Source: a virus
IMG/VR virus record: IMGVR_UViG_3300032156_000045
Coordinates: 1-35,249 of that record
Direction: 5' to 3' (one strand)
Length of the DNA stretch: 35,249 bases
The notes beneath the pieces are model-generated. The model ran no database searches. It was not told the origin of the DNA and saw nothing but the letters and a program-made list of their open reading frames with translations. Positions 2,183-35,170 of the stretch are shown here, piece by piece; within the stretch, counting starts at the first letter, position 1, and every line of letters starts with the position of its first letter. A program made the position numbers and the translations under genes.

Positions 2183-3940
2183 TTAACATATTCCGCTACC
2201 ATAGTATATTGATATTCCATATCTAGTATCAACGCCAGTAAAAGTATATGCATTATTATTAGTTGTCCAACAATGGCCACCACTTATTATTATATGTTCT
2301 CCCATTGAAACCCCAGTAAGAGTAACGATAACATTATATGACGCTCCTAATTGTAATGTCGATCCAGCGCTCTGTTGTCCTGCTGTTATTGGATAATATG
2401 GCGTGACGTCATTAACCAATACTCCATTTATCGCAACAGCACTAATACCGTACACGCCATTACTATTGGTAATCATTACTGATTGTCCAATTTTTGACGG
2501 CGTTGGAGACGGCGTTTTTGACCGCGTTGGAGACGGTGAACTCGGTGGACTCTCACCACTACAAGCTACGTTACATGTGTCATATGGGCCCCTACTTATT
2601 GTTAATGGCGAACCTCCAATAGGCTGTATAGTATTAACTAATAATACTTTTGCTCCACCATCGGTTGTATAATAATATTTCCCAATTGTTAGAAAAACTG
2701 TTGTTTGTATGTGAGCTGAACCAATAGTACCAGTGCAATTTCCGCCAGAACATCCATAAAATGTAACGCCATATCCCCAAATTGTGGACGAAGCACTTGG
2801 CGTTCTAGATGGCGTTAGTGTCATAGACGGTGTTTTAGATGGCGTTTTAGACATCGATAATGACGGCGTTTTTGATGGCGTCATTGACGGCGTTTTTGAT
2901 GGCGTCATTGACGGCGTTTTTGATGGCGTCATTGACGGCGTTTTTGATGGCGTCATTGACGGCGTTTTTGATGGCGTTTTTGATATCGTTATTGATGGTG
3001 TTGCTGATGGCGTTATTAATGGCGTTATTGATGGTGTTTTTGATGGTGTTACTAACGCTGGCGTTTTTGATGGTGTCGAAGACCGCGTTATAGATGGTGT
3101 TGGAGATTCCGTCATATATGGCGTTGAAAACGGCGTTTTAGATGGCGTTTTTGATATCGACATTGACGGAGTTTTTGATGGCGTCGGAGATGGCGTCATC
3201 AATGCTGGTGTTTTTGATGGTGTTGGCGTTACTGATATCGTTGAAGATTTTGTTATGGCTGGCGTTGCAGATGGCGTTTGAGACATCGTTTTTGATATCG
3301 ACACTGACGGCATTATTGATGGCGTTGGAGACGGCGTCGGATTAATTGAATTTAATACTATCAAAAATCGTCGATTAGGTGATAAAAATGTATTACTAAC
3401 ATTAATTGTTTTACCTGTATTCGGAAGAATTGTGTCTGAAAAAACAAATGGCGAAACAGAATCACTATCTCTAATTATCAATATATAGGATAATGCGTTA
3501 ACAATCTCGTTGTTAAAAATTTCAACATTTGTTGTATCTTCAACCGTGGTTCCTGTGTTTATATGATAATATATAGATTCGCCCTGATCTGGTAATGGAA
3601 TAAATGAAATTGGTCCAAATGATGCTGATGTAATATCAATACTTCCAGATTCTGGAAAAAACTCATTGGATATTTTCACATCTGAATATAAATGTTCCAT
3701 TGTTGATCCTGAACACCCAATACCACGATCGCCAGTATTTTCCAGCATAATTCCATACGATTCATCATTTATTGTAATTGTATGACCTGGAAATATTAAA
3801 CTTGATAATGGTACATTGGATTCAATTAGAAAAGGAACTGGCTCTGGATATCCATTAAGATCGTATCTATATTCGTAAATATTGAAACTACCGGCATCTG
3901 TGGTTGACGGAATTACTATTATTGTTACTTGATCTGCCAT
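2183..3940 (-). CDS. Modular adhesin-like protein with long Thr-Pro-Ser linker, 585 aa
   Basis: Four parts can be seen. Residues 1-200 form an unrecognised beta-rich domain. Residues 201-386 are a Thr/Pro/Ser array with units TPSK, TPSM, SISKTPS and KTPALVTPS. Residues 388-462 form a small Cys-containing domain (GVTFYGCSGGNC...YDTCNVAC). After a second short linker (463-483), residues 484-585 form a Gly-rich beta domain ending YYGSGIC. The Cys domain matches the C-terminal domain of the neighbouring 245-residue protein (FYNCS...LTVDKFYRLDD...YDNAC), so the two genes share a distal module behind unrelated N-termini. There is no signal peptide. The 46-base gap upstream carries TATTTATA. It is most likely a tail adhesin or decoration protein; no family is recognised for the N-terminus. 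Confidence 0.7.
   Translation of the reverse strand: MADQVTIIVIPSTTDAGSFNIYEYRYDLNGYPEPVPFLIESNVPLSSLIFPGHTITINDESYGIMLENTGDRGIGCSGSTMEHLYSDVKISNEFFPESGSIDITSASFGPISFIPLPDQGESIYYHINTGTTVEDTTNVEIFNNEIVNALSYILIIRDSDSVSPFVFSDTILPNTGKTINVSNTFLSPNRRFLIVLNSINPTPSPTPSIMPSVSISKTMSQTPSATPAITKSSTISVTPTPSKTPALMTPSPTPSKTPSMSISKTPSKTPFSTPYMTESPTPSITRSSTPSKTPALVTPSKTPSITPLITPSATPSITISKTPSKTPSMTPSKTPSMTPSKTPSMTPSKTPSMTPSKTPSLSMSKTPSKTPSMTLTPSRTPSASSTIWGYGVTFYGCSGGNCTGTIGSAHIQTTVFLTIGKYYYTTDGGAKVLLVNTIQPIGGSPLTISRGPYDTCNVACSGESPPSSPSPTRSKTPSPTPSKIGQSVMITNSNGVYGISAVAINGVLVNDVTPYYPITAGQQSAGSTLQLGASYNVIVTLTGVSMGEHIIISGGHCWTTNNNAYTFTGVDTRYGISIYYGSGIC
2492..2554 (-). repeat. Short second Thr-Pro-Ser linker in the 585-residue protein
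   Basis: Encodes residues 463-483 (SPPSSPSPTRSKTPSPTPSK). It separates the Cys-containing domain from the C-terminal Gly-rich domain. It uses the same words as the long linker, showing that the spacer is placed between individual modules and not only after the N-terminus. Confidence 0.75.
2783..3340 (-). repeat. Thr-Pro-Ser coding repeat array of the 585-residue protein
   Basis: About 558 bases encode residues 201-386. On the plus strand the array reads as variations on GATGGCGTTTTT. On the coding strand Thr-Pro is mostly ACGCCA or ACACCA, with Lys and Ser between. The unit is 4 residues (12 bases), with interspersed SISKTPS heptads. KTPALxTPS occurs twice in this array and again in the 1273- and 535-residue genes. 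Confidence 0.9.
2862..2981 (-). repeat. Four perfect tandem 24-base copies plus a diverged fifth
   Basis: Within the linker array, a 24-base unit starting GACGGCGTTTTTGATGGCGT on the plus strand repeats without change at 2862-2885, 2886-2909, 2910-2933 and 2934-2957. A fifth copy at 2958-2981 has two changes at its end. It encodes SKTPSMTP repeated. Perfect identity including third positions implies recent expansion by slippage or unequal recombination, unlike the rest of the array, which has diverged. Confidence 0.92.
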
Positions 3941-3986: not shown

Positions 3987-4724
3987 TTATGATGCACATG
4001 CGTTATCATAGCTATCATATCCAATTACAGGCTCAGTAAGAACAATAGAGTCTGGCCCTGTGATATAAACATCATATATATATACAATATCGGCGCTTGG
4101 GTCATCCAATCTATAGAATTTATCCACCGTTAAATTAACGGATGTGTTTATTCCGGCAAATCCTATTGGATATTCTATTGAACAATTATAAAATGCCGCC
4201 TTATAATAAAAAACTGTTTGCGATGTTGATGGCGATATTGTTGGAGTTATCGTTGGTGTTGCTGATATTGATAACGATGGCGATGGCGTTGCTGATATCG
4301 ATAATGACGGCGATATCGTTGCTGATATTGATAATGACGGCGTTACGGTTGGCGTTACTGATGGCGTTGCTGATATTGATAACGATGGCGTTACGGTAGG
4401 CGTTATTGACATACTAGGTGTTGGGGGCGCGCCTAATCTATATGCTATTTCATCATTTATTAGAATATTTTTAACCATCCATCTTTCTGGATATTCGATT
4501 TCTTGCCCCATAATCCAATATACTTGACCATAAACGAAATCGCCAATTAAATCTATTGTTGTTGTTCCTCCCGTAAATATTTGACCATAATCCGTATATC
4601 CACTATTAAGTGGATATGGATTAATACCAGGTGGGAATCCTACCACATCTGTTCCGGCTTTATAATATATTCTAAAGTCGTTTGGTATTGTAATTTCGGT
4701 TATTTTTATTCTAATATTGCCCAT
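3987..4724 (-). CDS. Small modular adhesin-like protein with Thr-Pro-Ser linker, 245 aa
   Basis: This is the shortest linker protein. Residues 1-99 form a beta-rich N-terminal domain with no recognised family. Residues 100-170 are a linker of PTVTPSLSISATPS units. Residues 171-245 form a Cys-containing C-terminal domain. That domain aligns by eye with residues 388-462 of the downstream 585-residue protein: FY-CS, then V-LT--K-Y, a DD/DGG-A-V turn, and Y-D-C/Y-D-NAC at the end. The two proteins differ upstream of the linker. There is no signal peptide or membrane segment. The gene sits 46 bases before the 585-residue gene and 22 bases after the lipoprotein gene. It is probably a tail adhesin or minor structural protein. 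Confidence 0.65.
   Translation of the reverse strand: MGNIRIKITEITIPNDFRIYYKAGTDVVGFPPGINPYPLNSGYTDYGQIFTGGTTTIDLIGDFVYGQVYWIMGQEIEYPERWMVKNILINDEIAYRLGAPPTPSMSITPTVTPSLSISATPSVTPTVTPSLSISATISPSLSISATPSPSLSISATPTITPTISPSTSQTVFYYKAAFYNCSIEYPIGFAGINTSVNLTVDKFYRLDDPSADIVYIYDVYITGPDSIVLTEPVIGYDSYDNACAS
4215..4427 (-). repeat. Thr-Pro-Ser coding repeat array of the 245-residue protein
   Basis: Encodes residues 100-170, dominated by TPSLSISAT units about 7-8 residues long. On the plus strand this appears as repeats of GATATTGATAAcGATGGCGTT with scattered substitutions. The same 21-base block occurs in the 1273-, 535-, 396- and 585-residue genes. Confidence 0.88.
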
Positions 4725-4746: not shown

Positions 4747-6681
4747 TTATGGTATATATTCATAAACTCCAATTTCTGGCGGATTATTTACGTTTGATCC
4801 GTCATAATCTTTTGATAATCCAACATCTATTCCATTATTTATTGCAGGGGAGCCTGGTTGTAAATGAAAATTAGTAGAAGATACAAATAATGGATTATCA
4901 GTATAATTATTCCGCGTGGTATTGTTTGTTGGCGACATTCCATTAAGATAAATTATATCATTATTTGCGTCGCCATAAAAAATATTATTTTCTATAGATA
5001 AATTGTCTATTGTTGTACCGCCTTCTCCATTACCATAGATTGAGCAATAATCAAAATTATAAATGATGTTATTTTGTATAGTAACATTGGTACTATGATC
5101 CGAATCTGGAAGCTCAATCCCCCACCTTGTGGTTGCTGATGAAGATCCAGTAAAAACATTATTCAAAATTTGTATATTATCAATAACTCCTGTTAATATA
5201 TGATCACAAACATCACAACCCCAATTAATTCCCCATCCTTTTGAATTTAACCCATTCGCCCCGATATTCTCAAAAATATTATATGATACCCTTATATTTT
5301 TTGTACTTACATTAGGATATTCAGTATTAACCATAAAACCTTGTGCAACATTTTTGATATGATTATATTCAATGATTACATCGTTAGTAATATGTTCTAG
5401 CAAAATTCCGCGAATATTTTCTCCAGCCAAAAGAGTTGTCTGCCCAATATTATTATTATGTATCCACACACAATACTCACTAGAACCCTTACCTAATGCT
5501 CGACAAATATCTATTGATCCTATTATATCATTATTATATATTTCCACTCCGCCTAGTGCGTTCCACATCTCAATAGCAAAATCCCAATGAGTTGATCCTG
5601 CAGATGGCCATCCATGAAGATACTTATGATGAATTGTGTTTTTATAGATTTTTAAATTTTTATTGAATCCCTCAACCATTCCAATACAATTTCCGTTTGC
5701 TCCATTTGATTTATTTTCAGTCATTGTGTTATTATAAACTAACATTCCATCGGTTCCAGTAATATGAAGAGCATCTCCTTTTGAATCTTCATTAAAATAT
5801 CCCGCACAATTAGTAACAATGTTATTATGAAATTCACATCCAGTGGCCCATCTATCATCTGGCGGCTCGCCATTATAGTATTTAATCCCAAACATTTTGA
5901 AATTAACAAATGTACAATTATATATTTTTACATTTCCTCTAAATCTTATTGTAATGGCGCCATATGCTGTTTGATTATTTCCATCCATTTTTATGCCTGA
6001 AATATGCTGATTACCATTTGTGTTTTCCGACCCGCTCTCTAAATGTATAGTAAATCCTGTTCCAGACATAATAGACTTAATTATTGATGTTGGGCCATCT
6101 CCCTCGATGCTGACGCCAGGCGCTAATCGGCATTGATCTTTTTCTGCTATTGTGCCAGGATTTATATGAATAATATTTCCTGATTTTGTTGCTTTTGTAC
6201 AAGCATATGAAAGTGTTGCAAAAGGGGCATTTATTGATCCGTTATTAATATTACTTCCAGTGTGAGATACATAATATGTTCCTGTAACACCTGACGATGT
6301 AGTGGTAAAAGAAACTTGAGATCCGTAACTTATTCCAATAGAATTTATTGCGTATGCTCTAATATAATATGTGGTACTAGAGGTTAAATTCACTAACGGA
6401 ATTATAAAAATACCAGTACCACCGTCATCACTAATTTTAGTACCCATTAAGACCGTTGGATTAGAAACGGTGCTCCAACATATACCTCTATCTATAATTG
6501 CTTTGTCTCCGCTTTTTACCACACAACCTCCACTAATAGCAGATGTAGATGTAATGAATGTTGCTTCTGTTGTTGTTACTTCTGGAACAGTTGGTTGATC
6601 AGGAGTGATAACTTTTTTTTCACAATAAAATAATTGTGATGCTATAAATAAAAAAATAAAAAAAATAGTTTTTGATTTCAT
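4747..6681 (-). CDS. Predicted lipoprotein with FN3-like and right-handed beta-helix domains, 644 aa
   Basis: The N-terminus MKSKTIFFIFLFIASQLFYC is a charged start, a hydrophobic core and a Cys at residue 20 followed by EKK, which looks like a type II (lipoprotein) signal peptide. The lipobox LFYC is atypical at the -1 position. Residues 33-128 match the FN3-like domain common in Bacteroidetes surface proteins (ITSTSAISGG, RGICWS, TTYYIRAYAINS, GSQVSFTT). Residues 135-644 form a parallel beta-helix of the pectate-lyase/DUF1565 type, rich in NNxI and YNNxI rungs. This helix is paralogous to residues 1-528 of the 1273-residue protein immediately upstream, with long identical DNA runs. A secreted lipoprotein is unusual inside a tail gene cluster. 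It could be displayed on the infected cell, or be a host-derived fusion. The role is unknown; glycan binding or cleavage is plausible for the helix. Confidence 0.75.
   Translation of the reverse strand: MKSKTIFFIFLFIASQLFYCEKKVITPDQPTVPEVTTTEATFITSTSAISGGCVVKSGDKAIIDRGICWSTVSNPTVLMGTKISDDGGTGIFIIPLVNLTSSTTYYIRAYAINSIGISYGSQVSFTTTSSGVTGTYYVSHTGSNINNGSINAPFATLSYACTKATKSGNIIHINPGTIAEKDQCRLAPGVSIEGDGPTSIIKSIMSGTGFTIHLESGSENTNGNQHISGIKMDGNNQTAYGAITIRFRGNVKIYNCTFVNFKMFGIKYYNGEPPDDRWATGCEFHNNIVTNCAGYFNEDSKGDALHITGTDGMLVYNNTMTENKSNGANGNCIGMVEGFNKNLKIYKNTIHHKYLHGWPSAGSTHWDFAIEMWNALGGVEIYNNDIIGSIDICRALGKGSSEYCVWIHNNNIGQTTLLAGENIRGILLEHITNDVIIEYNHIKNVAQGFMVNTEYPNVSTKNIRVSYNIFENIGANGLNSKGWGINWGCDVCDHILTGVIDNIQILNNVFTGSSSATTRWGIELPDSDHSTNVTIQNNIIYNFDYCSIYGNGEGGTTIDNLSIENNIFYGDANNDIIYLNGMSPTNNTTRNNYTDNPLFVSSTNFHLQPGSPAINNGIDVGLSKDYDGSNVNNPPEIGVYEYIP
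5447..5478 (-). repeat. 32-base identical segment shared with the adjacent beta-helix gene
   Basis: These 32 bases are identical to 9679-9710 in the 1273-residue gene. Both encode the beta-helix rung around EYCVWIHNNNIGQ. Further long matches occur nearby, for example the segment around 5160-5190 versus 9368-9400. Identity at synonymous positions implies a recent duplication or gene conversion between the two neighbouring genes. Confidence 0.85.
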
Positions 6682-6704: not shown

Positions 6705-9700
6705 TTATGCATATATTCGTGCTCCTACCTGCCATAATCCATTTTGATCTTGTGTTGCTGGCGATACGCCCACAGTCCATACAGCTGAAGTTGATAATCC
6801 AGTTTGAAATTCGGATCCAACACTACTTGTTCCATAATTTAATCTTGCCGTTGGAACAAAATTGGTTGTATCAATGAAATTTGGATTTATGTCTATGCGA
6901 GAATGTGTATCATATCCTAATGCCTGCCACTGGGCGAAGTTATATGATGTCGTAGATCCATCATTTGCGGCAATTTGAAATATAGGCGCTCCAGACGAAC
7001 AATAGAAAATATTATAATCACTCACAAATCCAGTTCGAGAATTATTGTAAATTTTTATCATTACTACGCTCGATGTGGCATAAAAAATATTATTATATAT
7101 CTTAGTGTTGGTAGATCCTAGTGATGGAGTATAATCTCCATTTGGCGATATCAATATAAAGTACATACTTTGGCCATCGCTGCTATAAAATGTATTGTTA
7201 ATAAATTTTATACCATTTATTCCTTTAACTCTTCCCGCAAAATGGCCATTTTTAACGATATTATATGACGCCCCTCCATAGGTATTTGTCATATAGTTGC
7301 CTCCACTATCGCCAGATTTATATATGATACCATATGGCGCTGTTTGTAAATAATTGTATTTTACTGCTGCATTTATATTATAACCAACAATAACTCCATG
7401 AGTAATAATACCACCATATGATCCGCCAGCCCATACAATCTTATTTCCAGATACAACCTCTCCATCCATCCAATTGCTTGAGGAGCCAGGACCATCATCT
7501 CCTAATTGAACAACATATCCGCCTGTATTTATGGAACTAACATAATTGTTTCTAAATATAAAATTAGATGGCCCGCTAATATCTTTTGTGTACTTATAAC
7601 ATGCATATCCGGTATCAGATGTGGGATTATTATCTACCACATTCATTCCTTCAACTATATCATATCCTCCCGATAACGGCGATGTTGACGGCGTTCTGGA
7701 TATTGATAAGGATGGTGTTTTCGATGGCGTTTTCGATGGCGTTATTGATGTCGTTTTGGATATTGATAAGGATGGTGTTACTGTTGACGTTATTGATGGG
7801 GTTCTAGATATTGATAAGGACGGTGTTTTAGATGGCGTTATCGATGGCGTTTTTGATGGCGTTAGAAATGGCGTTTTCGATGGCGTTATGGATATTGATC
7901 TCGATGGCGTTTTTGATGGTGTTCTAGACGGCGTTACCAATGCTGGCGTTTTGGTCGGCGTTGGCGTTGGTGATTTAGATATCGACAATGATGGTGTTAC
8001 TGTTGATGTTATTGATGGCGTTAAAAATGGCGTTACCGATGGGGTTCCAGATATTGATAATGATGGAGTTACTGTTGGCGTTATAGACACTGTTTCAGAT
8101 ATTGATAATGACGGCGTAACTGTTAGCGTTTTAGTTGGCGTAATTGTTGGCGATTCTGCTGGCTCCATCGACGACGTTGTTGTTGGTGTTACTGTCATCG
8201 TTGGAGTTAGTGATGGTATTATTACTCCCGCTGGCAATTCTAATGTGCAATTTGCACTATCAACAAAAATTAATGTATAATTTCCCAATGTGATACCTGT
8301 AAAACAATATGTACCTGGTATGTAATGTATATTATCAGGCGCGACTGAAGGAGAAATTGAAACTGTTATTGGGTATTCTCCATAGCTTAATGTGTAACAT
8401 ATTGTAATGGTGCCAGCAGATTTAGTTTCGCTTGGCGTTATTGATGGCGTTTTTGATGGCGATAAAAATGGTGTTTTTGACGGCGTTATAGATACTGATA
8501 ATGTTGGCGTTATTGATGGCGTTATTGATGGCGTTTTAGATATCGATAATGATGGGGTTATAGATGGAGTTATAGATGGGGTTATAGATGGCGATAAAAA
8601 TGGCGTTACTGATGGCGTTGCAGATATTGATAGAGATGGCGTTTTTGATGGCGTTTTGGATATCGATAGAGATGGAGTTACTGTCGACGTTGATGATGGC
8701 GTTATTGATTGCGATATTGGCGGTATTATTGGTGGTGTTGTTGATGGCGTTCTGGATATCGATAACGATGGCGTTTTCGATGGTGTTAACGACGGTGATA
8801 AATGCGGTGTTGTTGACGGCGTTCTAGATATTGATCGAGATGGCGTTTTCGATGGAGTTATAGTTGGCGTTTTAGATATCGATAATGACGGCGTTTTTGT
8901 TGGCGTTTTTGTTGGCGTTAGCGATGGTGATGCGGCCGCACCGACATATTCATATACACCAATTTCAGGAGGATTACCTATAACATTGCCGTCCATATCC
9001 AGCGTTCCTGTAAGTCCAACATCAATGCCAGCATCATAAGCTGGAGAAAAAATAGAACTCAAACGATAATTAGGCTCAGTTTCGGATAAAGAAATAAATA
9101 ATGGATTTGTTTTTATTGGTGTAACTGGCGTATAATGTGTTGGAGTTATGCCATTAAATCGAACATTATCACTATAACCATTGCTATAGAATATATTATG
9201 ATCAATAGCAAGAGTATCTATTGTTACCCCACCTAAGGACCCTTGAGAGGCATATAAGGGAGCATAATCGAAATTATAAACTATATTATTCCTTACTATT
9301 ACATTAGTTGCCTTACCTGAATCTGGAAGTTCGATCCCCCACATTGTGGTTGCCGCTGAAGCGGCACTAAAAACATTATTCAAAATTTGTATATTATTAA
9401 TAGTGGTCGTTTCAACATGATCACAAACATCACAACCCCAATAAAATCCCCATCCCCTAGAACTTAGATTTGATGTCCCTATATTGTGAAAAATATTATA
9501 TGATATTCTTACATTTGTTACATTTACAGGGGGTTTATCCGGCGGCCCATATTGAGTATTAACATGAAAAGCTTGCGCGACATTTTTCACGAAATTGTGC
9601 TCAATAATTACGTCATTAACGCTAGATTCAAGTAAGAATCCATAAGTATATTCTGATGACATAAGAGCTGGCTGTCCGATATTATTATTATGTATCCACA

Positions 9701-10526
9701 CACAATACTCGCCAGAACCTTTGCCCCATGCTCGAGAAACATCTATTGCTCCTATTATATCATTATTATATATTTCATTTCCTTCATACCAGTTCCAAAT
9801 TTCTATTGCAAACGACCATGTTATTCGAGGATCAGTAATAGGAAATATTTTTGTAAATGTATTATGATGAATCTTAACATTTTTTAGATGGCCTTCAACG
9901 CCATCAATAATATTACCATTTAATCCGTCTGCTCTATTTATCGTTATAGTATTGCCAGATATTACTAATCCATCTTGCCCTCCAATATTTAAAGTTCCTT
10001 TAGAGTCACCGCCAGAATATGTTCCGAAATATCTGCTGCAATTAGTCATTACGCAATCAATAATTTTGTTATTTGTGGCAAAAGTTGCTGGCGGAGTTGA
10101 GACATCATTTCCATTTAGCATATAAATTGCATACCAATCAAAGTTAACAAAAGTACAATTAGATATTCTTACATTTCCTCGATTACGTACTCCTATTGCT
10201 GAATATCCATTATAGCTGTTACCATCCATTTTTATATTGGAGATATGTTGATTGCCATTAAAATTTAAAGAACCGCTATACAAATATATCGTATGACCCT
10301 TAGTACGATCAACAGTAGAACTTATTACAGAACTATCACCATCACCCTCAATACTTACGCCTGGCGCTAACTCAGTTTGTATTGATTCTGATATTATGCC
10401 AATGATATGAATTATATCACCAACGGTTGTAACATGAACAGCCGCATAATGAAGAGTTTTCCATGGCGCATCAAATGAACCATCTCCCAACGAATCACTT
10501 CCATATTCGCTTACATATCTCGTCAT
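6705..10526 (-). CDS. Multi-domain tail adhesin with two beta-helices and an SprB-like domain, 1273 aa
   Basis: Five segments are visible. Residues 1-528 form a right-handed beta-helix that opens with VSEYGSDSLGDGSFDAPWKT, the 'GSDxxxGSxxxPWKTL' entry of DUF1565/pectate-lyase-like proteins. Residues 533-701 are a Thr-Pro-Ser linker. Residues 705-765 form an SprB-like repeat (YGEYPITVSI...GNYTLIFVDSANC). Residues 770-950 are a second linker. Residues 955-1273 form a second, different beta-helix (FINNTFYS, IYNNIFYA, DYNIFYCSS) ending in NGLWQVGARIYA. The first helix is paralogous to the lipoprotein downstream but lacks its signal peptide and FN3 domain. Phage beta-helix proteins are often receptor-binding or capsule-degrading tail spikes. 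No catalytic residues can be assigned by eye. The start ATG at 10526 is preceded by a conserved 20-base element. Confidence 0.75.
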   Translation of the reverse strand: MTRYVSEYGSDSLGDGSFDAPWKTLHYAAVHVTTVGDIIHIIGIISESIQTELAPGVSIEGDGDSSVISSTVDRTKGHTIYLYSGSLNFNGNQHISNIKMDGNSYNGYSAIGVRNRGNVRISNCTFVNFDWYAIYMLNGNDVSTPPATFATNNKIIDCVMTNCSRYFGTYSGGDSKGTLNIGGQDGLVISGNTITINRADGLNGNIIDGVEGHLKNVKIHHNTFTKIFPITDPRITWSFAIEIWNWYEGNEIYNNDIIGAIDVSRAWGKGSGEYCVWIHNNNIGQPALMSSEYTYGFLLESSVNDVIIEHNFVKNVAQAFHVNTQYGPPDKPPVNVTNVRISYNIFHNIGTSNLSSRGWGFYWGCDVCDHVETTTINNIQILNNVFSAASAATTMWGIELPDSGKATNVIVRNNIVYNFDYAPLYASQGSLGGVTIDTLAIDHNIFYSNGYSDNVRFNGITPTHYTPVTPIKTNPLFISLSETEPNYRLSSIFSPAYDAGIDVGLTGTLDMDGNVIGNPPEIGVYEYVGAAASPSLTPTKTPTKTPSLSISKTPTITPSKTPSRSISRTPSTTPHLSPSLTPSKTPSLSISRTPSTTPPIIPPISQSITPSSTSTVTPSLSISKTPSKTPSLSISATPSVTPFLSPSITPSITPSITPSLSISKTPSITPSITPTLSVSITPSKTPFLSPSKTPSITPSETKSAGTITICYTLSYGEYPITVSISPSVAPDNIHYIPGTYCFTGITLGNYTLIFVDSANCTLELPAGVIIPSLTPTMTVTPTTTSSMEPAESPTITPTKTLTVTPSLSISETVSITPTVTPSLSISGTPSVTPFLTPSITSTVTPSLSISKSPTPTPTKTPALVTPSRTPSKTPSRSISITPSKTPFLTPSKTPSITPSKTPSLSISRTPSITSTVTPSLSISKTTSITPSKTPSKTPSLSISRTPSTSPLSGGYDIVEGMNVVDNNPTSDTGYACYKYTKDISGPSNFIFRNNYVSSINTGGYVVQLGDDGPGSSSNWMDGEVVSGNKIVWAGGSYGGIITHGVIVGYNINAAVKYNYLQTAPYGIIYKSGDSGGNYMTNTYGGASYNIVKNGHFAGRVKGINGIKFINNTFYSSDGQSMYFILISPNGDYTPSLGSTNTKIYNNIFYATSSVVMIKIYNNSRTGFVSDYNIFYCSSGAPIFQIAANDGSTTSYNFAQWQALGYDTHSRIDINPNFIDTTNFVPTARLNYGTSSVGSEFQTGLSTSAVWTVGVSPATQDQNGLWQVGARIYA
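7677..8219 (-). repeat. Second Thr-Pro-Ser array of the 1273-residue protein
   Basis: Encodes residues 770-950, between the SprB-like domain and the C-terminal beta-helix. It is built from TPSLSIS, SKTPSK and KTPALVTPSRTPS units. The KTPALVTPS word recurs in the 535- and 585-residue genes. Confidence 0.9.
8424..8930 (-). repeat. First Thr-Pro-Ser array of the 1273-residue protein
   Basis: Encodes residues 533-701, between the N-terminal beta-helix and the SprB-like domain. TPSLSISKTPS and SISRTPST units dominate. On the plus strand it is a dense run of GATGGCGTT words. Confidence 0.9.
9679..9710 (-). repeat. 32-base identical segment shared with the lipoprotein gene
   Basis: This is the partner of 5447-5478 and lies in the N-terminal beta-helix of the 1273-residue protein. 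The two copies are about 4.2 kb apart in direct orientation, so recombination between them could delete or swap the intervening linkers and domains. Confidence 0.85.
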
Positions 10527-14804: not shown

Positions 14805-16412
14805 TTAAGGTAAAGGACATTCTAATGATTCTCCATCACATATTCCATGATTTATTGGTATTCCAGTTGTTACTCCATATATTGTTGAGAATGCTTGCGA
14901 TCCATCAAGATAATATCCATTATCTACCACAGTAGTTAATGCGGCGTCTTTATACCAAGTAACACCTTCTATTCCATTTGCTTGATACAGCACTGGATCG
15001 AAGTATACTGTTACAGTTGTACCAAGATTTTCACCGCATAGTGTACAAGCGAATTGTTTATCATTATAACTTATTGTGCTTGGTATTGTTGCCGCAATAA
15101 AACATAAATCCAATGAAATTGGGCCATTATCTATAAAGTACCCATATATTTTAATATTATCAGTTTTAAATGTATATATGAGTGTTTCATCTTCTGTTAT
15201 CCAACTAATATTATTGATTGTAAATCGATCTGCGAGTTCATATGACCATCCAAGGAATGTCGTTCCGCCTGCTGGGTTTCCTACAGCTTCAACCACCATG
15301 CCATATGGCTCAGTTACGCCCATTCCTTGCGTCAAATCCCAGAAACGCAGAGGGTATGACGGCCCATCATAAAAGTATCGGTAAAATCCACTAGCGGTAG
15401 GTGTTAAATATATTGGAATAATTTCAATGTATATTCCGCTACAATCGATCTCCGTCCACCTATATACTATACCAGCATTATCTCGTACATATATATTATA
15501 TACTCCACCAGCAACTAGTCCCATAAATGCATATGTTGTATTATATATTGGGGCCGTAAGTGTAACGCCATTATTAATACTATATTGATATGGAGCAATT
15601 CCTCCACTAATAGTAATAGTAATCGTGCCTTCAGCACAACTAGATGCCACATTTGTGATTCTTAACGGTGGTACTACTGAACTTGTTGATGGCGTTCTAG
15701 ATGGCGTTATTGTTGGGGTTCTAGATATCGACAATGATGGCGTTTTAGTTGGCGTTGGCGATGGCGATAAATTTGGCGTCCTAGACGGCGTTCTAGATAT
15801 TGATAATGACGGCGTTCTAGATATTGATAATGATGGCGTCGCTGTTGGCGTTCTAGATATTGATAAAGACGGTGTTACTGTTGGCGTTACTGTTGGCGTT
15901 CTAGATATCGATAAGGATGGCGTTAGTGTTATGGATGGCGTTCTGGTCGGCGTTATAGATGGCGTTATAGATGTCGTGATGGTTGGTGTTGTTGTTGCTG
16001 TTCTTGACGGCGTTACCAATGCTGGTGTTTTGGTTGGCGTTGCTGATCGCGTTATGGTCGGTGTTATAGACGGTGTTATGGCTATGCTTGGTGTTATTGT
16101 CGGGGTAACAGTCGGAGTTGGCGTAGGCGTAGGTTCAATCGTAGTAAGATCTAGTGTAAAATCAAAATCACAATTATAATTAATATCAGAAATTTCAGCC
16201 ACTATATCGCATACTATAATATATCCCACACAATTTAGAGAATCGGTAAATGTCAATAAATAATCTCCTGATGGAATGTCAGTAAAAGCATATATGCCAG
16301 GGATCATATGTATATTTGTGGCGATTGTCGTTCCAGTGTTAAGTAACGACGCAAGCGTAACCGTTATTGGAAATGCTCCGTTAGTTACTGAATATGTTAT
16401 TACTGCCGCCAT
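14805..16412 (-). CDS. SprB-repeat-like adhesin with Thr-Pro-Ser linker, 535 aa
   Basis: Residues 4-70 form an SprB-like domain (ITYSVTNGAFPITVTL...PSGDYLLTFTDSLNC). Residues 94-246 are the Thr-Pro-Ser linker. Residues 250-325 form a second SprB-type repeat (ITNVASSCAEGTITITISGG, APYQYSINNG, GLVAGGVYNIYVRDNAG). The remainder (330-535) is Cys-containing and includes TWYKDAALTTVVDNGYYLDG, a turn pattern also seen in Bacteroidetes surface proteins. SprB is the gliding-motility adhesin of Flavobacterium-type bacteria; the phage protein is far smaller and has no secretion signal, so it is read as a virion adhesin built from the same repeat fold. The N-terminal domain resembles residues 705-765 of the 1273-residue protein. 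The gene starts 30 bases after the 2167-residue gene. Confidence 0.72.
   Translation of the reverse strand: MAAVITYSVTNGAFPITVTLASLLNTGTTIATNIHMIPGIYAFTDIPSGDYLLTFTDSLNCVGYIIVCDIVAEISDINYNCDFDFTLDLTTIEPTPTPTPTVTPTITPSIAITPSITPTITRSATPTKTPALVTPSRTATTTPTITTSITPSITPTRTPSITLTPSLSISRTPTVTPTVTPSLSISRTPTATPSLSISRTPSLSISRTPSRTPNLSPSPTPTKTPSLSISRTPTITPSRTPSTSSVVPPLRITNVASSCAEGTITITISGGIAPYQYSINNGVTLTAPIYNTTYAFMGLVAGGVYNIYVRDNAGIVYRWTEIDCSGIYIEIIPIYLTPTASGFYRYFYDGPSYPLRFWDLTQGMGVTEPYGMVVEAVGNPAGGTTFLGWSYELADRFTINNISWITEDETLIYTFKTDNIKIYGYFIDNGPISLDLCFIAATIPSTISYNDKQFACTLCGENLGTTVTVYFDPVLYQANGIEGVTWYKDAALTTVVDNGYYLDGSQAFSTIYGVTTGIPINHGICDGESLECPLP
15675..16133 (-). repeat. Thr-Pro-Ser coding repeat array of the 535-residue protein
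   Basis: Encodes residues 94-246, with units TPTVTPS, TPSLSISRTPT and KTPALVTPSRT. It is basic (Arg/Lys between the Thr-Pro pairs). The plus strand shows the same GATGGCGTT / GATATTGATAATGA words as the other arrays. Confidence 0.9.
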
Positions 16413-16426
16413 TTTTTATTTTAATA

Positions 16427-16446
16427 TGTTTCTTATCTATAATTAT
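16427..16446 (-). promoter_or_regulatory. Conserved 20-base upstream element (copy 2)
   Basis: The minus strand reads ATAATTATAGATAAGAAACA, matching 10543-10562 at 19 of 20 positions, and lies 14 bases upstream of the ATG at 16412. Its 5' end overlaps the stop codon of the 2167-residue gene. It is a candidate promoter or processing/leader element for the adhesin genes. Confidence 0.4.
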
Positions 16447-19400
16447 ACCAATGTTCCCGTATTTACAGTTTCCCATCCAGTGTCAAGAGGATTGTCTGTT
16501 CTCAAGAATGCCTTTCTTTGAAGTTCCCAATCTGTCGGTGGTGCATTTGTTAATATGAGATTATCCCAAGCTCTCCATAATATCCATTGATTTGTCAATC
16601 CATTAAATGGATTAGTTGCATAAAATCTAAATCCAAGGTTATAAAGCATAGTTTGTGTTAAGAAACCAGGCCTCATTCCTTCACTAATGAAGATATATGA
16701 CGTTACTTGGCGTGTTGCCTGATAATCGTTGACACTAATATACTTATATGCTGAAATTGGGTCTACAGATCTTACATGCGTTGTTCTTTGTGCTACAGGT
16801 ATTAAATTATTTTTCGTATAATTCATATTATTAATTGCATTTCTTGCTGCCTCCCAATTTTCATCACATGGAAGATCGGTCATACCATTACTTGGTATAA
16901 TATAATCAAAACGAATAGTTTTATTTATTGAATCATATGTTATTGGTGAGAAGAACGATATATAAAGATAGGTCGAAACTGTTGAGTCGCCACAATTACT
17001 AGGCGCGTACATCCAATTTATCATCCAATGTGAATAATATATCAGATTTGTTGAATCTCCAGTCGATGCAACCCATAAACCATAATCGGTTGTTGCTTTA
17101 ATAGAATTAATATTTGATACAAATTTATTGTAATCCGTAATGCTTGTGAATGTAAATGTTACACCTGTCGAAGTTGGTAATGCAGTTATCGTATCTGATG
17201 GCGTTGGTAAATTAGTACATGTAAAGAGGCCTGGACCATTCCATAAATAAACGGTGTATTGAGTATTTTTCCATGGATTAGTTATATATTGTGGATTTGT
17301 AAAGTTATAATTTGAAACTTTATTACCGCTAGCTGATTTAAACATATCGGTATAATTCCATATGAAATATTCAGACACCGATTTTTGGGTTGATTGCCAA
17401 TTTGTAAATCCGCTAATAGTATTATACATCACATTATAATAGCAATCAGGATCGCCAGAATATGCTATCATTGTCGTACCTGTCAGTATTTTACTTAAAT
17501 TCGAATCCATAAATGTTGTGTCAATATCACTATTTGATAAGCATTTTAGTCTAATATCCCAGTTAGTGTCATTATTGGTTGGTTCATAAACGGCTCCTAT
17601 TATTTCAATTTTTAAATAATCTCCTTCAGCATATGTAAATCCAGACAAATTAGTTACATATTTAGCCCCAACAGTTCCATTGGTCCATGGCCGATAATAA
17701 TACACTTTTGGATCTGTTGGATAATTTGCTGGGAATAAATCTGTTACTAAATATCCGCCGCCAGCGCTTCTTGTACCAACAACGAAATTATCTATTGTTG
17801 TACCACTCGTATTTGATGGGGTACAGTAAGAAATTATTAATTGATCTGCCACATCATATCCGGCGAATTCCCATGCAAAATATGCCGTATCGCCCGTTAT
17901 TTGAAATGATAATGATCTCGATTTTTTCTCATTAACATTAACATTATTTCTATATGTTAAAACAAATGGATATGTGGTTTCGGGATTATATGTAACACCG
18001 CAGGTAATTGGATTAATGACTATTGGCGTTTCATTAATACAGGTTAATAAATCTGGGCTATAACGAGTGCTTCCGCTAACCATATTTAAATATGGCGTAT
18101 ATGTAACACCGTTTAATATAACATATCTAATAACAGCATAATATGTTCCTTGCGGTACAACTTCATTTATAAACGGATGTTGCTGCTGAATATCAGGATC
18201 ACCTCCAACACCACTAATAAGTTCCGTCGTGCCAGTCACACTATTTAATCTCCATTCGATAACGTAATCACTAATAGTACAAATCGAACCAGAAGAAATT
18301 AAATGATTAGATGATAAGAAATATCCGCCAGTTGCTCCAGAAATTTGTAAATTACATATCGAACATTCACTATATGGTATAATCGGTGTAACGCTTGGTA
18401 CTGGCGTGAATGTCGGCGTAACGCTTGATGTCAGAGACAATGTTGGAGTAATGCTTGGCGTCGGAGATGGTGATGATTCGGGCACATTCTCTATATCAAT
18501 AAAATCAACATCTAAATAGCATGACATTGATGGGGCTGGCGTTGTAGATGGTGTTATAGATGGCGTTGTAGATGGCGTTGGAGATATCGTCGGCGTTATA
18601 GTTGTTGTTGTCGTTGGCGTAACTGATTTCGTCGGAGTCTTACTTGGCGTAATACTTGGCGTTAGTGTTATGGTTGTTGTTGGCGTTATGGTTGGTGTTG
18701 GAGTTATTGTCGGAGTTCTAGTTAGCGTTGGAGTTATTGTAGGTGTTGGCGTTAAACTTGGTGTTGTTGTTCTAGTTATGCTTGGCGTTCTAGTTATGCT
18801 TGGCGTTATCGTTGGCGTAACAGTTGGCGTTATTGATGACGTAACAGTTGGCGTTATGGATGGCGTAACGGTTGGCGTTATGGATGGAGTTGGTGTTGGA
18901 GATACTTCTACAATTACATTATCAGTACATCCAGTCCATTCACAAACAATATTGCGATCTCTTACATATTGTTGATTTATTGGCGAAGATTCGTCCTGTC
19001 CATATCCTTTAAAGTATTGAGCAAGAGTGTAATCTATAGTATCAAATTTTTCTTCGGTATATTTCATTATAATTCGATCAGTTGCTCCTGACATACCGTT
19101 AAATAAAATAATATTACCCGTATCTGAACTTCCAGACGCATTTAATTGGTAATATATCTTTTTATAATTATCATCACTGCAATAATTAAATGTAACTCCA
19201 GTTACTTCAATTGGAAATCCATATTGATTAATTAAAAAATCACCATTTTGAGTATCGCCAGTAGGTTTAACATATAAATCTTCAGGATATTTGTAATCAA
19301 AATGATATGGCACAGTTTCTAGCGTAAGGCTTATATTAGTATAAACTAATACTTTACTTGTTGGTAGAATTTCAAATTCATCGTTAATAATATGTGTTTT

Positions 19401-22400
19401 TACTGAGCTAAAACATTCTTTATTTTCAATAGTAATAAAATTATAATCAAATGCAAATTGATATCCATTAATTGATGCGTTATTAAAGTCATTACTATCT
19501 AATGAGCTGTAAGGTTTGAATGCCGCGGATAATAAACTATCCCCAATTGAAACGCTTTCAACTGTTACGCCGCTAAAACTTCCTGTCATTATTCCATCAG
19601 CAAGATCCGTCCATATCGATGGAACAGCTGGTGTACCGATAACTTTGTAGACGATAGTTCCTTTTCTTATGCCATAATCAAAACTTGGTCTGTATTCTGC
19701 TATTGGATTTCCAGTATATCCGCTAACGCCTGGAGAGACTTCAAGAACAACAAATTGTAATCCATCAACCTCTAGTCTTTGCTCGCAGTTCGCAGCATCG
19801 GTAAATATTAAATGAATAAGATCGCATTCAGTAAAGCCAGTTACCATAAACACGCATGGCTCAACTTGTTGTATTCTTGGGTAAACATTTACATCATCAT
19901 CACATTCTTGATGTACATAAACCGATCCTCTACCAAGTTCATCTCCAATTGCCCCTCTAACCGTAAAATATAAATCACCGACTAATAAACAATTTGTATC
20001 ACCGCTATAAATCGGCATCGATATTTCTACAAGCACTTCTAAAGAGCAATCCTGTTTTGTTAAATTAAAAATTGGAATAAAATAATAGTCAAATCCTTCA
20101 TGACATGTTTCATTATAATATTCATTTGACATTATAGTTATTTTTATTTTTTCAATGCTATCAATGTCAGTAAAATATTCTGATGTTATCGTATATCCAG
20201 TTTCAATAAGACTAATATCTGCCAGCAACAAATCTATTGTATCTTTCCAAATAGCCTTCATATCATCAACTGTATCTCCGCCATTGAACAATGACCAACT
20301 ATTATATGGATCGTCATATCCACAAATTAATGGAATATAATCAGATGTTTGAGTTAATATTGTACAATTATCACTTGGCGGGATATATGTTGAAAATGGC
20401 TTAAAATTAGGCGTGTCTCTGGTATATATCGTTCCATTTATAACAAGCGTTATTCGAAATGATATTCCGCCAAAAAGCCAAACTCCCCTAAAGCTAATTA
20501 ATGACATATCTTCTCCATCAATAGAACCTCCGCCAACAATTGTTTGAAGATCTTCACGAATCACAGTTTCAAAATCAGGATAAAGAGAATGTGTATATAT
20601 AATTGGGACACACGGCTGAATATGCACAAATTTTGAAATATTGCCTTTAGTAAAATACCCATTTTCAATTAGATTTCCGCCTAGCCATAGCGTTGTCGCT
20701 GGTACAAACTGATCTATTATGCTGGTCCAATAGGGACTTAATTTATTTATAAAATTACATATGGAAATATAATTGTAGGGTTTAAATTCGTTACTTTTTT
20801 GATAGGCGTCATATACTGCTATTATATCCACATAACCTCTATGATATTTCATAATATGCGAATTCCTGATAACGTCATTCAAGATTTCATCTAAAAATTC
20901 GGCAAATGTCCTACCAGTTTGTGGCATTAAATCATAAAAAGTCAACGATAAATCTCTAGATTTTCTATATATGTCATAATCTACCGCTCTATCCGCAGCT
21001 AAAAATACATTAATGTTTTTTCTATTTAATATTAATTTTGACGCATATTCATCAGTAACATTTTTGATTTTTTTATTATCAATTTCGGGTGATAAACCAT
21101 ATCCGTAATCCAATCCTGGAAGTTTTCGATATAGATTAAAATAATCTTCACCATATGTAAATGGTTTAGACATAGTTTTAATTACTTTTATTCTGCCAGA
21201 TAAATCTGAATTTGACGTGTCTAGAATATCGTGAGATCTATGATCTAATGTTTTTCTATACCATCCAGCACCTAGTTCAAAGAACACACTTCCATCAGAC
21301 GCGGTGATTTTTCGTGGTAATCCTGTTTCTTCATCAACAGGATATTCATCCCTTGTTAATGTTGTTGATCCTGTCAATTGTGTTAATGTATAACCAGTAA
21401 ATCCTGTGGCTCCTGTAGTTTCAAGATATTCAACAATATTAACCACTCTAATTCCTTGCATAGCCTCCCAAATATCATTCTCAACATTTTTTGATGGTAA
21501 CAATGCATCAACTTTATAAATGTATTCATCAAGTCTGATTATTGGCTCGGGAGCACCAATAAATTTTAAAAAGAATTCTATGGCTAATCTGGTTCCTTTT
21601 GATTTATATAAATTAGCAAGATTAACTAATATTCTTCTATAAAATTCGTGTTCTGCTTCAATTAAATTAACTCCTGTTAATATACCTTCATATTGAGTGT
21701 CGTGTCTTGTGTATAAAGAATCTGATAGGCTTTTTTCATCAAATAAGCTAGTAATTGAAAGACCAAGAGTTTCAGATAGATTTTTTAATAACAGATCAGG
21801 AACATTATTGATACCATCATAGCTTACATTTCTCATATAAGCAATATTGTCAATAAATTTTTTTACTTGATCGAAACTTTGTCCATAAATTTGAAATATA
21901 GATTCTATCTTTTTTTCTTCAGTATCAAATTCATAAAGTTGTGGGGATGTTAAAAATCTGATAATTAAATTGGATCTATAATTATCTATTTCATCTCCAA
22001 ATGAACTTATTTGATTAATATAAAAATCATAATCAATACCAGTTATTTGAATATTCCATCCGTCTCGTGATATTGGCCAGTTTGCGTATACAGTAATTAT
22101 GTCTGTGTTATATCCGCCGTTTGTTTCTCTTGATACATTAAACCCAGCATTAAATTTAGGATTGCTTTCCCTATTCAACAATACTACTTCTACTTCATCC
22201 AAACCCTTATAAAATTCTTCAACGACCCCATCATTTGGCCTTATTAAATAATTTTCAGTAAATTCAGTTGCCCCATTAAAACAATCGCCAACAACTTTTA
22301 TCTTGATTTTATTTTCTGTGTCTGGCTCAGTATATTCCAATATAGTATATGTAACACCACTTAGATCAAGAACATATTTTGTATATGATGAATAAAAATT

Positions 22401-22946
22401 CCTTATGCTATTATCTGTTGCGATTAATGTGGCAGATTTAGGCTCAACTAACACAACATCTAACGGATTATATATTAAGGAATATTGTACTTTAAACTCA
22501 GTAGTATATGAAATTGAATCGAATACAGAAGATTCGGCGCTTAAATTATTTAGTCCAACAGGCGATGTTGTATCAACAAGAACGGCAGCAGGATATAGGG
22601 TAATAATATTTGAAACTGAAACTCCAAGCCTTTGCTTTAATGATCCATAAAGAGAACGATCAGCATTGTTTTTATCGTTATTAAATTTAATATCTTGATC
22701 ACTATTACTTGTGCTAGCTGTATCGCTAGCTGTGGAAGTTTCTTGATTAATGTCCGCCAGTGTAAGAAAATCTGAAAACTGTTGCGATCTAAATTCTTTA
22801 CTATCCTTTTCAGGAATTACTTTATCAATAGCAAAGTTACCACCAGTCATTTCGCTGGAACCGTCAGTAAATTGCTGACCAACCAGAAAATCGCTAAATG
22901 TATCAGCTCCACTTGCGGCTTGACTAGGGACTTTGTATGTTGTCAT
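16443..22946 (-). CDS. Giant baseplate/tail protein with tail-protein-I-like region and distal adhesin part, 2167 aa
   Basis: The N-terminal ~120 residues are Ser/Asn/Asp-rich and probably flexible. Residues about 325-470 resemble phage tail protein I (P2 gpI type): [30 protein letters not shown], a LLxxLSETLGL helix, then [31 protein letters not shown]. The 'YxxKGTxxAIexflxxxG' signature is characteristic of baseplate wedge/tail proteins that join sheath or tube to fibres. A long beta-rich centre follows (it includes [14 protein letters not shown], an SprB-like ending). Residues about 1348-1471 and 1492-1521 are Thr-Pro-Ser linkers, and the last ~640 residues form an unrecognised Trp/Tyr/Cys-rich distal part. 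The protein thus covalently joins a baseplate part to an adhesin-like part. Its ATG overlaps the previous stop by one base (TAATG), implying translational coupling. Confidence 0.75.
18384..18473 (-). repeat. Short Thr-Pro-Ser array in the 2167-residue protein
   Basis: Encodes about residues 1492-1521 ([18 protein letters not shown] and following). It is separated from the longer array by about 20 residues containing [15 protein letters not shown]. Confidence 0.8.
18535..18903 (-). repeat. Long Thr-Pro-Ser array in the 2167-residue protein
   Basis: Encodes about residues 1348-1471. It is richer in TPTITPT and TTTTTITPT than the other arrays and lacks the TPSLSIS heptads, so it is a more diverged version of the shared linker. 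Confidence 0.87.
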
Positions 22947-23866
22947 TATGCTGTAATCGTATCAAAATTTAATGATTCGTCAATATCAGTTTTTTTCTCT
23001 CTAATTTCGTATAATGTTTCGTTATATTGATCTTTAATTTCATATAAATTGAATTGTTTGTAAATATGACGAGTACCATCTGGATCCTGACTATAGATCG
23101 TATAGATACCACTAGATATAGCTTTACTTTGATCTCCATAAAGAGCATATGCCAATGTTGAAGCGTCATGTTCAACCATTTCAATTTCAATTGTAACTGG
23201 ATTAAAATATGTGTTAGTTAAAATAATTGTTTGTTCAGGCTGACCGATATATGGAACAGTATTTGGCCTTGTTGACGGCGCAGAACTTGGGGTTATTGTT
23301 AAAAACATCAAATTTGTTGCGCTATCAGAATATCTATATCTAATCGCTTTCTGACTAGTATTTGTTAAATTTGTAGTGATTGGCTCGCAATAAAAATTAG
23401 ATGTAATAACTCTATAAAAATTTGGTATTTTTTTACTGTCGGTTGGGTTTATATACTCAATACGATATCCAACCAATCCTTGTGGAGAAAATTTATTTCT
23501 ATCAGTAGAAACCACATTTGATAAATCTATCACTAGTCCTCTAACTGATGGCAAAGACGCTAACACGCCACAGTCAGTTATCTTCGTTCTAATCTGTTTT
23601 GGCCTGAGGTGAAGGGTGTATATCCCCAAGTCAGAGAAGTTCCCTGATTCGAGTTTTAAATTATATAATCCACCCAAAATCTCAACATTTGCTACTCCGC
23701 CAGTCTGATCATTATGATAAACGGGTGTTAAAATTGACGCAGCATCCAATGTTTTCAATGTTACCTCTGAACTGGCGTTTCTATCAACCACATAATGATA
23801 TAATATTTCAACATCTTCTGGCGACACATCCGCGGGTCTAATTATCCCATAGCTACCTATACTCAC
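22946..23866 (-). CDS. Conserved-looking tail/baseplate component of unknown function, 306 aa
   Basis: A mixed beta protein without signal peptide, membrane segment or linker. It begins [20 protein letters not shown] and has a motif-like [15 protein letters not shown] around residue 80. The C-terminus is helical and charged ([20 protein letters not shown]). The start is GTG at 23866, because no in-frame ATG lies nearby; an AAAGAG sequence just upstream may help initiation. The start overlaps the end of the endonuclease gene by 14 bases, and the stop overlaps the next ATG by one. Position between baseplate genes suggests a baseplate part, perhaps where T4 encodes gp8-like wedge proteins, but no sequence match is recognised. 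Confidence 0.6.
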
Positions 23867-33337: not shown

Positions 33338-35170
33338 TTAATATGTAGTCGAAGCAAGATTTTTTGTCCTTACTTTTATATCTAATGATGGAAATCTAAT
33401 TTGAAATATTTGATTTGACTTCATATAGATTGTGCTATCGGATTGTAAAATTTCTTTAGTTTCATTACTTACATATGACTGAGATACTTGTGATGATGAA
33501 TAATTTCCGCCTATTTTATTAAAAACTCTAACATCCACAACATTCACAACGCCAGCAACATTACCAATTTCTCTTTTTAAATCACCAACTAATAATGGAT
33601 CTCCCATTTTTCTTTTACTAACGTCAAAAAATGATATTATCTGTTCAATAGCTGATTTTATAATATCAGTTGAATTTTCGTTTTTATTAACCACCAAATC
33701 AACTTCTAGCCCCATATCTATTACTTCACCGCTTTGTATATCCAGATAGTCATTTAACATTCTGTAATTAGATAAGTAATTTAACACATTATCTTTCAAT
33801 GTATTTGAAACGGTATCAATTAAATTACCATTTTCATCATATGATAATAATTTAATTCTAACCTTATTATCTTCTTCCATTACATTAACTTTTGCAGGGG
33901 CCCCGTAAGTTGAAGGCATAGTTTCAATCATTGACTTATAATCATTTAATGTTACGGCTCTATTTTGAGCGGCAAAATTATAAGCTATCATATTTCTTAT
34001 CTCCTCAATTGTTGGAGCGTCCGCTCCTCCAATTGCTGGCGTAACATTTGTTACTCTCATTGATTGATTCACTTGACTATTTATTGACGCGTTTGGCCCA
34101 TTTACCGCAAAATCATATGAATCCATAGTTGTTATAACATTAACGCCAATATTTGTGTTTTTACCTCCACCAATTCTATATTTGACAAATAATGTTGTAT
34201 TTGATTTTGGAATGTTGCCTAGCGACATATTATTTAAAAATGTTGCGAGACTGACTTTCATTGTTCCATTCATATAATTGTCCAAATTATCCATTGGGTC
34301 AACATTGCCAGAACCAAAAGTCAATAAAAAATAACCTTCGGGCATATATTCCGTACAAAATTTATTACTGACTTTAACATAATCCCCAGCTTTGAAATTA
34401 TCGCTATCAGATGCTGATGTCGGATTTTCAATAAAAACTTTATCCTCAATCAATGATTTAACTTCATACCACTTATTTGGTGAAGATATAAATTCATCTG
34501 ATGTTGGATTTGATCCATAACTTGTACCGTCTTTATGAATAACCGCAGATACTCCTAAAACATTTTTTTCTGGGAGATATAATTTTAAAAATGGTTTTTG
34601 ATCTATATCGGTAACAACTTTTCTATATATTCTTGTTGTGCCATTAACAACGGCTTCTCTTTTTGTTATTGTATAAGATACCAGCTTTTTATTTGTGTTG
34701 AAATTTGGTATTTTTAATCTATTAGATTCTCCTTTGCTATTAAAAGGATTTGAAAAATCTACATCTTCAATAATTTCAAAAACCTGTCCGCCGCCCGAGA
34801 CTTGAGACCCAGCTTTTAATATTCCCTCATATCTTTCATCATCTTTATCTCCGTTAACTGGAACATTTATACTGAAGTCACATAAAGCAACGGATGGCCT
34901 GAGACCAGGTAATTTAATACCATATGTTTTAGCGATATGAAATAATGATTGTCTTTGCTGGGCAAAATCTAACATTGTTTCTTGCCATACTCTATCAATA
35001 TGGAAATGTAGGTTATCTGCAACAGCTGCGTTTAAATCCAATAAAACCGAATAGATCGATGCATCGTTAAAATTGGAAATTAAATCAGGATAGTATTGTT
35101 GCGTCAATTTAACCAAGTCATCTCGAAGACTGGCAAAATCCCTTATTGCATATGAAATTTGTTTTGCCAT
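33338..35170 (-). CDS. Baseplate wedge protein, T4 gp6 / baseplate-J-like, 610 aa
   Basis: The N-terminus ISYAIRDFASLRDDLVKLTQ followed by YYPDLISNFNDASI, and then VLLDLNAAVADNLHFHIDR, is the characteristic start of gp6-like wedge proteins of large myophages. Residues about 380-555 match the baseplate-J pattern: GGADAPTIEEIRNMIAYNFA, AQNRAVTLNDYKSMIE, and the LREIGNVAGVVNVVDVRV-like region near the C-terminus. Length (610) is close to T4 gp6 (660). In T4 this protein forms the ring joining the wedges of the baseplate, so the phage very probably has a contractile tail. The gene is followed after 53 bases by the 1572-residue gene and preceded by an unidentified gene ending 8 bases upstream. ATG at 35170 follows an A/T-rich ATATATAAA sequence. 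Confidence 0.88.
   Translation of the reverse strand: MAKQISYAIRDFASLRDDLVKLTQQYYPDLISNFNDASIYSVLLDLNAAVADNLHFHIDRVWQETMLDFAQQRQSLFHIAKTYGIKLPGLRPSVALCDFSINVPVNGDKDDERYEGILKAGSQVSGGGQVFEIIEDVDFSNPFNSKGESNRLKIPNFNTNKKLVSYTITKREAVVNGTTRIYRKVVTDIDQKPFLKLYLPEKNVLGVSAVIHKDGTSYGSNPTSDEFISSPNKWYEVKSLIEDKVFIENPTSASDSDNFKAGDYVKVSNKFCTEYMPEGYFLLTFGSGNVDPMDNLDNYMNGTMKVSLATFLNNMSLGNIPKSNTTLFVKYRIGGGKNTNIGVNVITTMDSYDFAVNGPNASINSQVNQSMRVTNVTPAIGGADAPTIEEIRNMIAYNFAAQNRAVTLNDYKSMIETMPSTYGAPAKVNVMEEDNKVRIKLLSYDENGNLIDTVSNTLKDNVLNYLSNYRMLNDYLDIQSGEVIDMGLEVDLVVNKNENSTDIIKSAIEQIISFFDVSKRKMGDPLLVGDLKREIGNVAGVVNVVDVRVFNKIGGNYSSSQVSQSYVSNETKEILQSDSTIYMKSNQIFQIRFPSLDIKVRTKNLASTTY

Follow-up and report, generated by a model that had tools for sequence, protein, structure and literature searches.

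On balance we favour a reading in which the 644-residue protein encoded at 4747-6681 is an accessory insertion in a phage adhesin cassette, whereby a lipoprotein signal of host type and an FN3 spacer became fused to an adhesin helix, with the product still being exported. The window, i.e. the whole stretch analysed, is a 35-kb virus fragment from IMG/VR (35,249 nucleotides), and would derive from a contractile-tailed phage infecting Bacteroidota. The N-terminal part of the protein would supply the signal and spacer, and the C-terminal part a putative β-helix adhesin or carbohydrate-binding domain, held in common with the neighbouring gene (Table 1).

The open reading frame begins with ATG, is the fourth gene from the left, and is separated by gaps of 22-23 nt from its two same-strand neighbours, the 1273-aa adhesin and the small TPS-repeat protein. 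The minus-strand genes of the window form a contractile-tail module; we assign the cluster to a phage tail because its baseplate wedge protein matches that of Flavobacterium phage immuto, in which the genes for tail fibre and spike likewise come after the wedge gene. An assembly chimera is unlikely, as the one-strand cluster, the short gaps and the composition all match. Several other features of the cluster deserve mention. TPS-rich (SITPSKTPS) linkers recur in many tail proteins of the window, at 2183-3940, 3987-4724, 6705-10526, 14805-16412, 16443-22946, 25635-26831 and 28566-33284, as well as in the relatives L003 and L017, and look like joints between modules; the protein at 14805-16412 also carries a SprB repeat (PF13573), another host gliding-adhesin motif. 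An HNH-type endonuclease-like gene (phrog_8446) of low GC content (26%) sits inside the tail cluster at 23853-24641 and is likely to be a homing insertion.

Table 1. Coordinates of the 4747-6681 gene, its parts and the neighbouring tail genes in the window.
Position	Strand	Feature	Basis or detail
4747..6681	-	644-aa ORF: export signal, FN3-like domain and right-handed β-helix	homology, Pfam, AlphaFold model
6622..6681	-	signal peptide MKSKTIFFIFLFIASQLFY plus Cys20 (residues 1-20)	atypical lipobox LFYC
6298..6621	-	short linker and FN3-like domain (residues 21-128)	Bacteroidota lipoprotein type
4750..6279	-	β-helix (residues 135-644)	sister of the N-terminal domain of 6705-10526
6705..10526	-	1273-aa tail adhesin	paralogous helix at residues 1-528, then TPS-rich linkers and C-terminal helix
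3987..4724	-	245-aa tail-cluster gene	small TPS-repeat protein
33338..35170	-	baseplate wedge protein	26% identical to Flavobacterium phage immuto wedge

A preliminary description of the gene had proposed a signal peptide ending in Cys20, and this is borne out. The protein opens with MKSKTIFFIFLFIASQLFYC, followed by EKK, and so combines a basic n-region with a hydrophobic core of nine residues (mean Kyte-Doolittle value 3.4) and a cysteine near residue 20; among the large genes of the window, it is alone in having such an N-terminus. Our call is made from a crude rule together with homology, of which the latter is the stronger part: Cys20 and the key FN3 residues are invariant in 15 of 15 aligned members (the 644-aa protein and 14 Bacteroidota N-termini), and homology spanning the signal, the cysteine and the FN3 domain rules out a chance hydrophobic N-terminus.

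The lipobox was rightly described as atypical, as its -1 position is occupied by Tyr, outside the small residues (S/G/A) of the usual rule, compared with Ser (17) or Gly (2) in 19 host members; we therefore claim a lipoprotein-type N-terminus, rather than lipidation. The lipoprotein surface-export motif (LES) has been given as C-X-K-(D/E)2 (PMC5080379), and a search of CEKKVITPD under a rule taken from the same source (K-(D/E)2, Q-A-(D/E)2 or S-acidic just after the cysteine) found no such motif following Cys20, so surface exposure is not predicted; a motif of this type is present in only 8 of the 19 host members. Two features of the N-terminus have thus drifted from the host type, namely the Tyr at -1 and the lack of the acidic surface-export motif, from which it follows that export is likely and lipidation plausible, with surface display not predicted. 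The chance of finding an intact signal under neutral drift is about 5% (1.5% with the cysteine also kept), if the signal is assumed to be as old as the helix duplication (the A/B split).

Residues 1-130 belong to a family of Bacteroidota lipoproteins with FN3 domains, with which they align unbroken from the signal into the FN3 domain. The Bacteroidetes-style FN3-like domain that had been suggested is upheld both by this family alignment and by the AlphaFold model, in which residues 31-130 form a confident β-sandwich (pLDDT about 97) with mostly FN3 domains as its PDB matches. The first 133 positions of the NCBIfam model NF049889 (BT0360 arabinanase) match residues 1-131 starting from position 1 (E 1e-9), a partial match that falls far below that model's cut-off; Pfam fn3 gave no match to the protein. 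The genomes with the closest cellular helices encode many proteins with a signal, a cysteine (then K/S-rich residues) and an FN3 domain, and among cellular proteins just weak or partial candidates were found for an FN3 domain followed by a helix.

The remainder of the protein is a β-helix (Pfam PF13229, 35 bits), modelled with pLDDT mostly above 90, and the proposed paralogy with the neighbouring tail adhesin is clear: residues 135-644 are 53% identical to residues 2-528 of the 6705-10526 protein over 531 columns (E 2e-161), with the rest of the adhesin (TPS linkers and second helix) missing from the 644-aa protein. Similarity between the two copies at the DNA level is uneven (75% over 521 bp, 68% over 281 bp). 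Synonymous divergence (dS) is about 1.1 and dN/dS is 0.35, so that the copies are not recent and have been under constraint, i.e. purifying selection. The 644-aa protein matched none of the solved structures by sequence, and the closest folds are a mixture of lyases, epimerases, glycosidases and tailspikes at low TM-scores; the fold therefore does not separate an enzyme from a binder, and we rejected an enzyme assignment made on this basis. Also rejected was a reading as T9SS cargo, as the protein ends at the helix and has no T9SS C-terminal sorting domain (CTD).

A genome scan returned 22 relatives of the helix, 21 of them in Bacteroidota MAGs. Nearly all cellular relatives with a readable N-terminus carry a Sec-type signal, with a lipoprotein-type cysteine in one (L039), and T9SS type A sorting domains are present in all seven C-termini tested. 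In the helix tree the window pair are sisters (support 97/96); phage L016 branches next to them, followed by a cellular clade of Bacteroidales, and at least four changes of the phage label are required. The family is a cellular one of Bacteroidota that has entered phages several times. Five other phage contigs hold the helix, with a signal in L016, L018 and L020 and without one in L003 and L017; the adhesin of L017, although syntenic, contains a helix from a different branch. Capture of a host lipoprotein gene, as had been put forward, is thus well supported as regards the N-terminal half of the protein and the cellular source of the helix family. The further idea, that this gene was the donor of the tail gene's helix, is possible, although a sister relation between the copies gives no direction.

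The lipoprotein gene is accessory. The gene at 126-2162 is common to four contigs at 44-80% identity, and in none of the four does anything correspond to the lipoprotein gene. L017 has its adhesin directly next to the homologue of 3987-4724, with a gap of 15 nt and no lipoprotein gene between them; this is the only clean empty site, because in the other three relatives the adhesin cassette at the flank either differs or is absent. In L149 (9960-10001), the entire cassette is missing between the homologues of a 2167-aa protein and of 126-2162.

Synthesising these findings, we suggest that the signal of the 644-aa protein probably still works, such that the protein is exported to the envelope of the infected cell, in all likelihood late in infection, there to be lipidated on Cys20 or, in view of the Tyr at -1, perhaps processed by signal peptidase I. 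As the lipoprotein holds the same helix as the virion adhesin, we infer that a masking or alteration of the receptor could follow; more tentatively, then, the exported helix might bind or alter the adhesin's receptor in the envelope, and in doing so limit re-adsorption of progeny to the dying cell or debris, or superinfection. The gene itself would have arisen through a general exchange, in which phages recruit secreted proteins of Bacteroidota, often along with their export signals, into their adhesin zones. Weighing on any export-based reading are the Tyr at -1, the missing LES, the absence of the gene from close relatives and the rarity of signals in cultured phages (5 of 134 ORFs, see below).

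A rather unlikely alternative is that the protein is a virion adhesin with a relic signal, that is, an alternative tail spike derived from a fused or captured host gene, mounted on the tail with its signal unused or tolerated. Its setting amid a one-strand adhesin cluster, the paralogy of its helix with the tail adhesin, the signal-less helix copies of phages L003 and L017 and the degenerate -1 position would all be consistent with this, but domain searches found no known tail-attachment domain in the protein, which, unlike its neighbour, also has no TPS linker; moreover, the hydrophobic core is intact, and there is no internal ATG before residue 79 from which a signal-less form could be made.

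The preliminary description had itself raised the idea of a decoy, in which a lipoprotein flipped to the cell surface shows the adhesin helix, occupies receptors and excludes other phages. We regard this as unlikely: the lipoprotein-type N-terminus and the shared helix would suit it, and there are parallels in a receptor-blocking phage lipoprotein, T5 Llp (PMC9586334), and in phage-encoded T9SS cargo for which superinfection exclusion has been suggested (PMC7468147), but the idea is weakened by the missing surface-export motif after Cys20 (PMC5080379) and by a location in the tail structural cluster, many superinfection-exclusion proteins being expressed early (PMC9586334), and Llp works from the periplasmic side without adhesin mimicry. 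Least probable of all is a passive cargo or domain reservoir, i.e. a gene taken from the host that plays no selected part in infection and is at most a donor of its helix to the tail gene by recombination, with which the accessory presence, the uneven DNA similarity and the other helix branch in the L017 adhesin would agree, but against which stand 644 open codons, the constraint on the helix pair and the intact signal core.

That a lipoprotein-like signal is odd within a tail cluster had been remarked on at the outset, and the observation can now be widened, as other Bacteroidota phage contigs also have export signals in their adhesin zones. In five other phage contigs (L007, L010, L014, L018 and L020), found through FN3/helix queries and hence not a random sample, Sec-type signals were called in 13 of 20 adhesin-zone ORFs compared with 9 of 113 elsewhere (p 6e-8), and still in 8 of 15 zone ORFs when the five genes found by the queries are removed (p 7e-5). 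This test applied a crude signal rule to ORFs of at least 140 aa, with the zone taken as the region between the tail and lysis genes, its boundaries set by hand and two start sites corrected by hand. The signal-bearing zone genes of these contigs include fibre-like and pectate-lyase-spike-like proteins. In the records of four cultured Bacteroidota phages (6H and phi12:1, with parts of immuto and of phi38:1), the rule picked out 5 of 134 ORFs, and no tail gene convincingly. When orthologues were sought in viral contigs, the signal-bearing fibres of L007, L018 and L020 matched just themselves; in the genomes of one Bacteroidota order it is mainly the C-terminal fibre-like domain of the L020 protein that recurs. 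In the literature we found nothing direct on signal peptides of Bacteroidetes-phage tail proteins, and phage DGR target proteins have been described as lacking signal peptides (PMC6199706).

Individual loci add to this picture. Four successive adhesin-zone genes of L007 (2989-11467) all have a Sec-type signal, some being fibre-like or pectate-lyase-spike-like, and the same region has a helix similar to that at the C-terminus of the window adhesin, the similarity being to part of a signal-peptide spike. A 72-kb viral contig (L016:4906-5880, G001) encodes a PorP/SprF-family T9SS outer-membrane protein (TIGR03519, 203 bits) just upstream of a 1911-aa protein with signal, helix and FN3, and a 92-aa ORF in L056 (5935-6213, G006), made up of a signal and a T9SS type A sorting domain (above cut-off), lies between signal-bearing spikes and the lysis cassette. 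It is conceivable, although rather unlikely, that a group of Bacteroidota phages routinely places Sec or lipoprotein signals on its adhesin-zone proteins, sometimes together with T9SS parts (sorting domain, PorP/SprF). Proteins resembling tail fibres would then be delivered into or onto the infected cell, where they could mask receptors or else meet the virion outside the cytoplasm.

Tailed phages are taken to build their tails in the cytoplasm, and export signals on adhesin-zone proteins therefore need explaining. The evidence suggests that Bacteroidota phages of this kind acquire genes for host surface proteins along with the signals for export, and that they may send tail-like proteins into the envelope of the infected cell. 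Working signals would mean that such a phage delivers its own receptor-binding domains, in copy, to the envelope of its host, which would offer a direct and testable way of controlling superinfection in Bacteroidota. Should the signals be relics, they still record that genes for host surface proteins have repeatedly moved into the adhesins of phages. The more interesting question is then why so many adhesin-zone genes of Bacteroidota phages carry export signals.

Amongst known proteins, the FN3 lipoproteins of Bacteroidota (NF049889 N-terminus, BT0360) share the signal, the invariant cysteine and the FN3 domain with the 644-aa protein, which differs in its Tyr at -1, in having no acidic surface-export motif, and in carrying a β-helix in place of the various C-terminal domains of the host proteins. 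Secreted β-helix proteins of Bacteroidota (L021-L041) have a helix 33-52% identical and a Sec signal, but mostly no lipoprotein cysteine, and many have a T9SS CTD; where FN3 is paired with the helix it follows it (G009 contig 159), whereas here it precedes it. BACON-domain phage proteins, some with T9SS sorting domains (PMC6949934), are similarly a case of Bacteroidota host surface domains taken into phage structural regions, although the domain is a different one and no lipoprotein signal was reported. T5 Llp (PMC9586334) is a phage-encoded lipoprotein that acts in the host envelope (as we suppose for the 644-aa protein) and blocks the receptor, which also guards against adsorption to fragments of cells; it is small and expressed early, works on FhuA from the periplasmic side and lacks an adhesin domain. 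Perhaps closest in kind is the T9SS cargo of cryophages (Bellas et al. 2020, PMC7468147), where host-type exported proteins are likewise found among the variable genes of Bacteroidetes phages and a role in superinfection exclusion or competition has been suggested; that cargo consists of enzymes with a T9SS type A CTD and a PA14 protein. Phage-encoded T9SS cargo has thus been reported before, whereas here a lipoprotein-type export tag and FN3 domain, with no CTD, are joined to a copy of the helix of the neighbouring adhesin.
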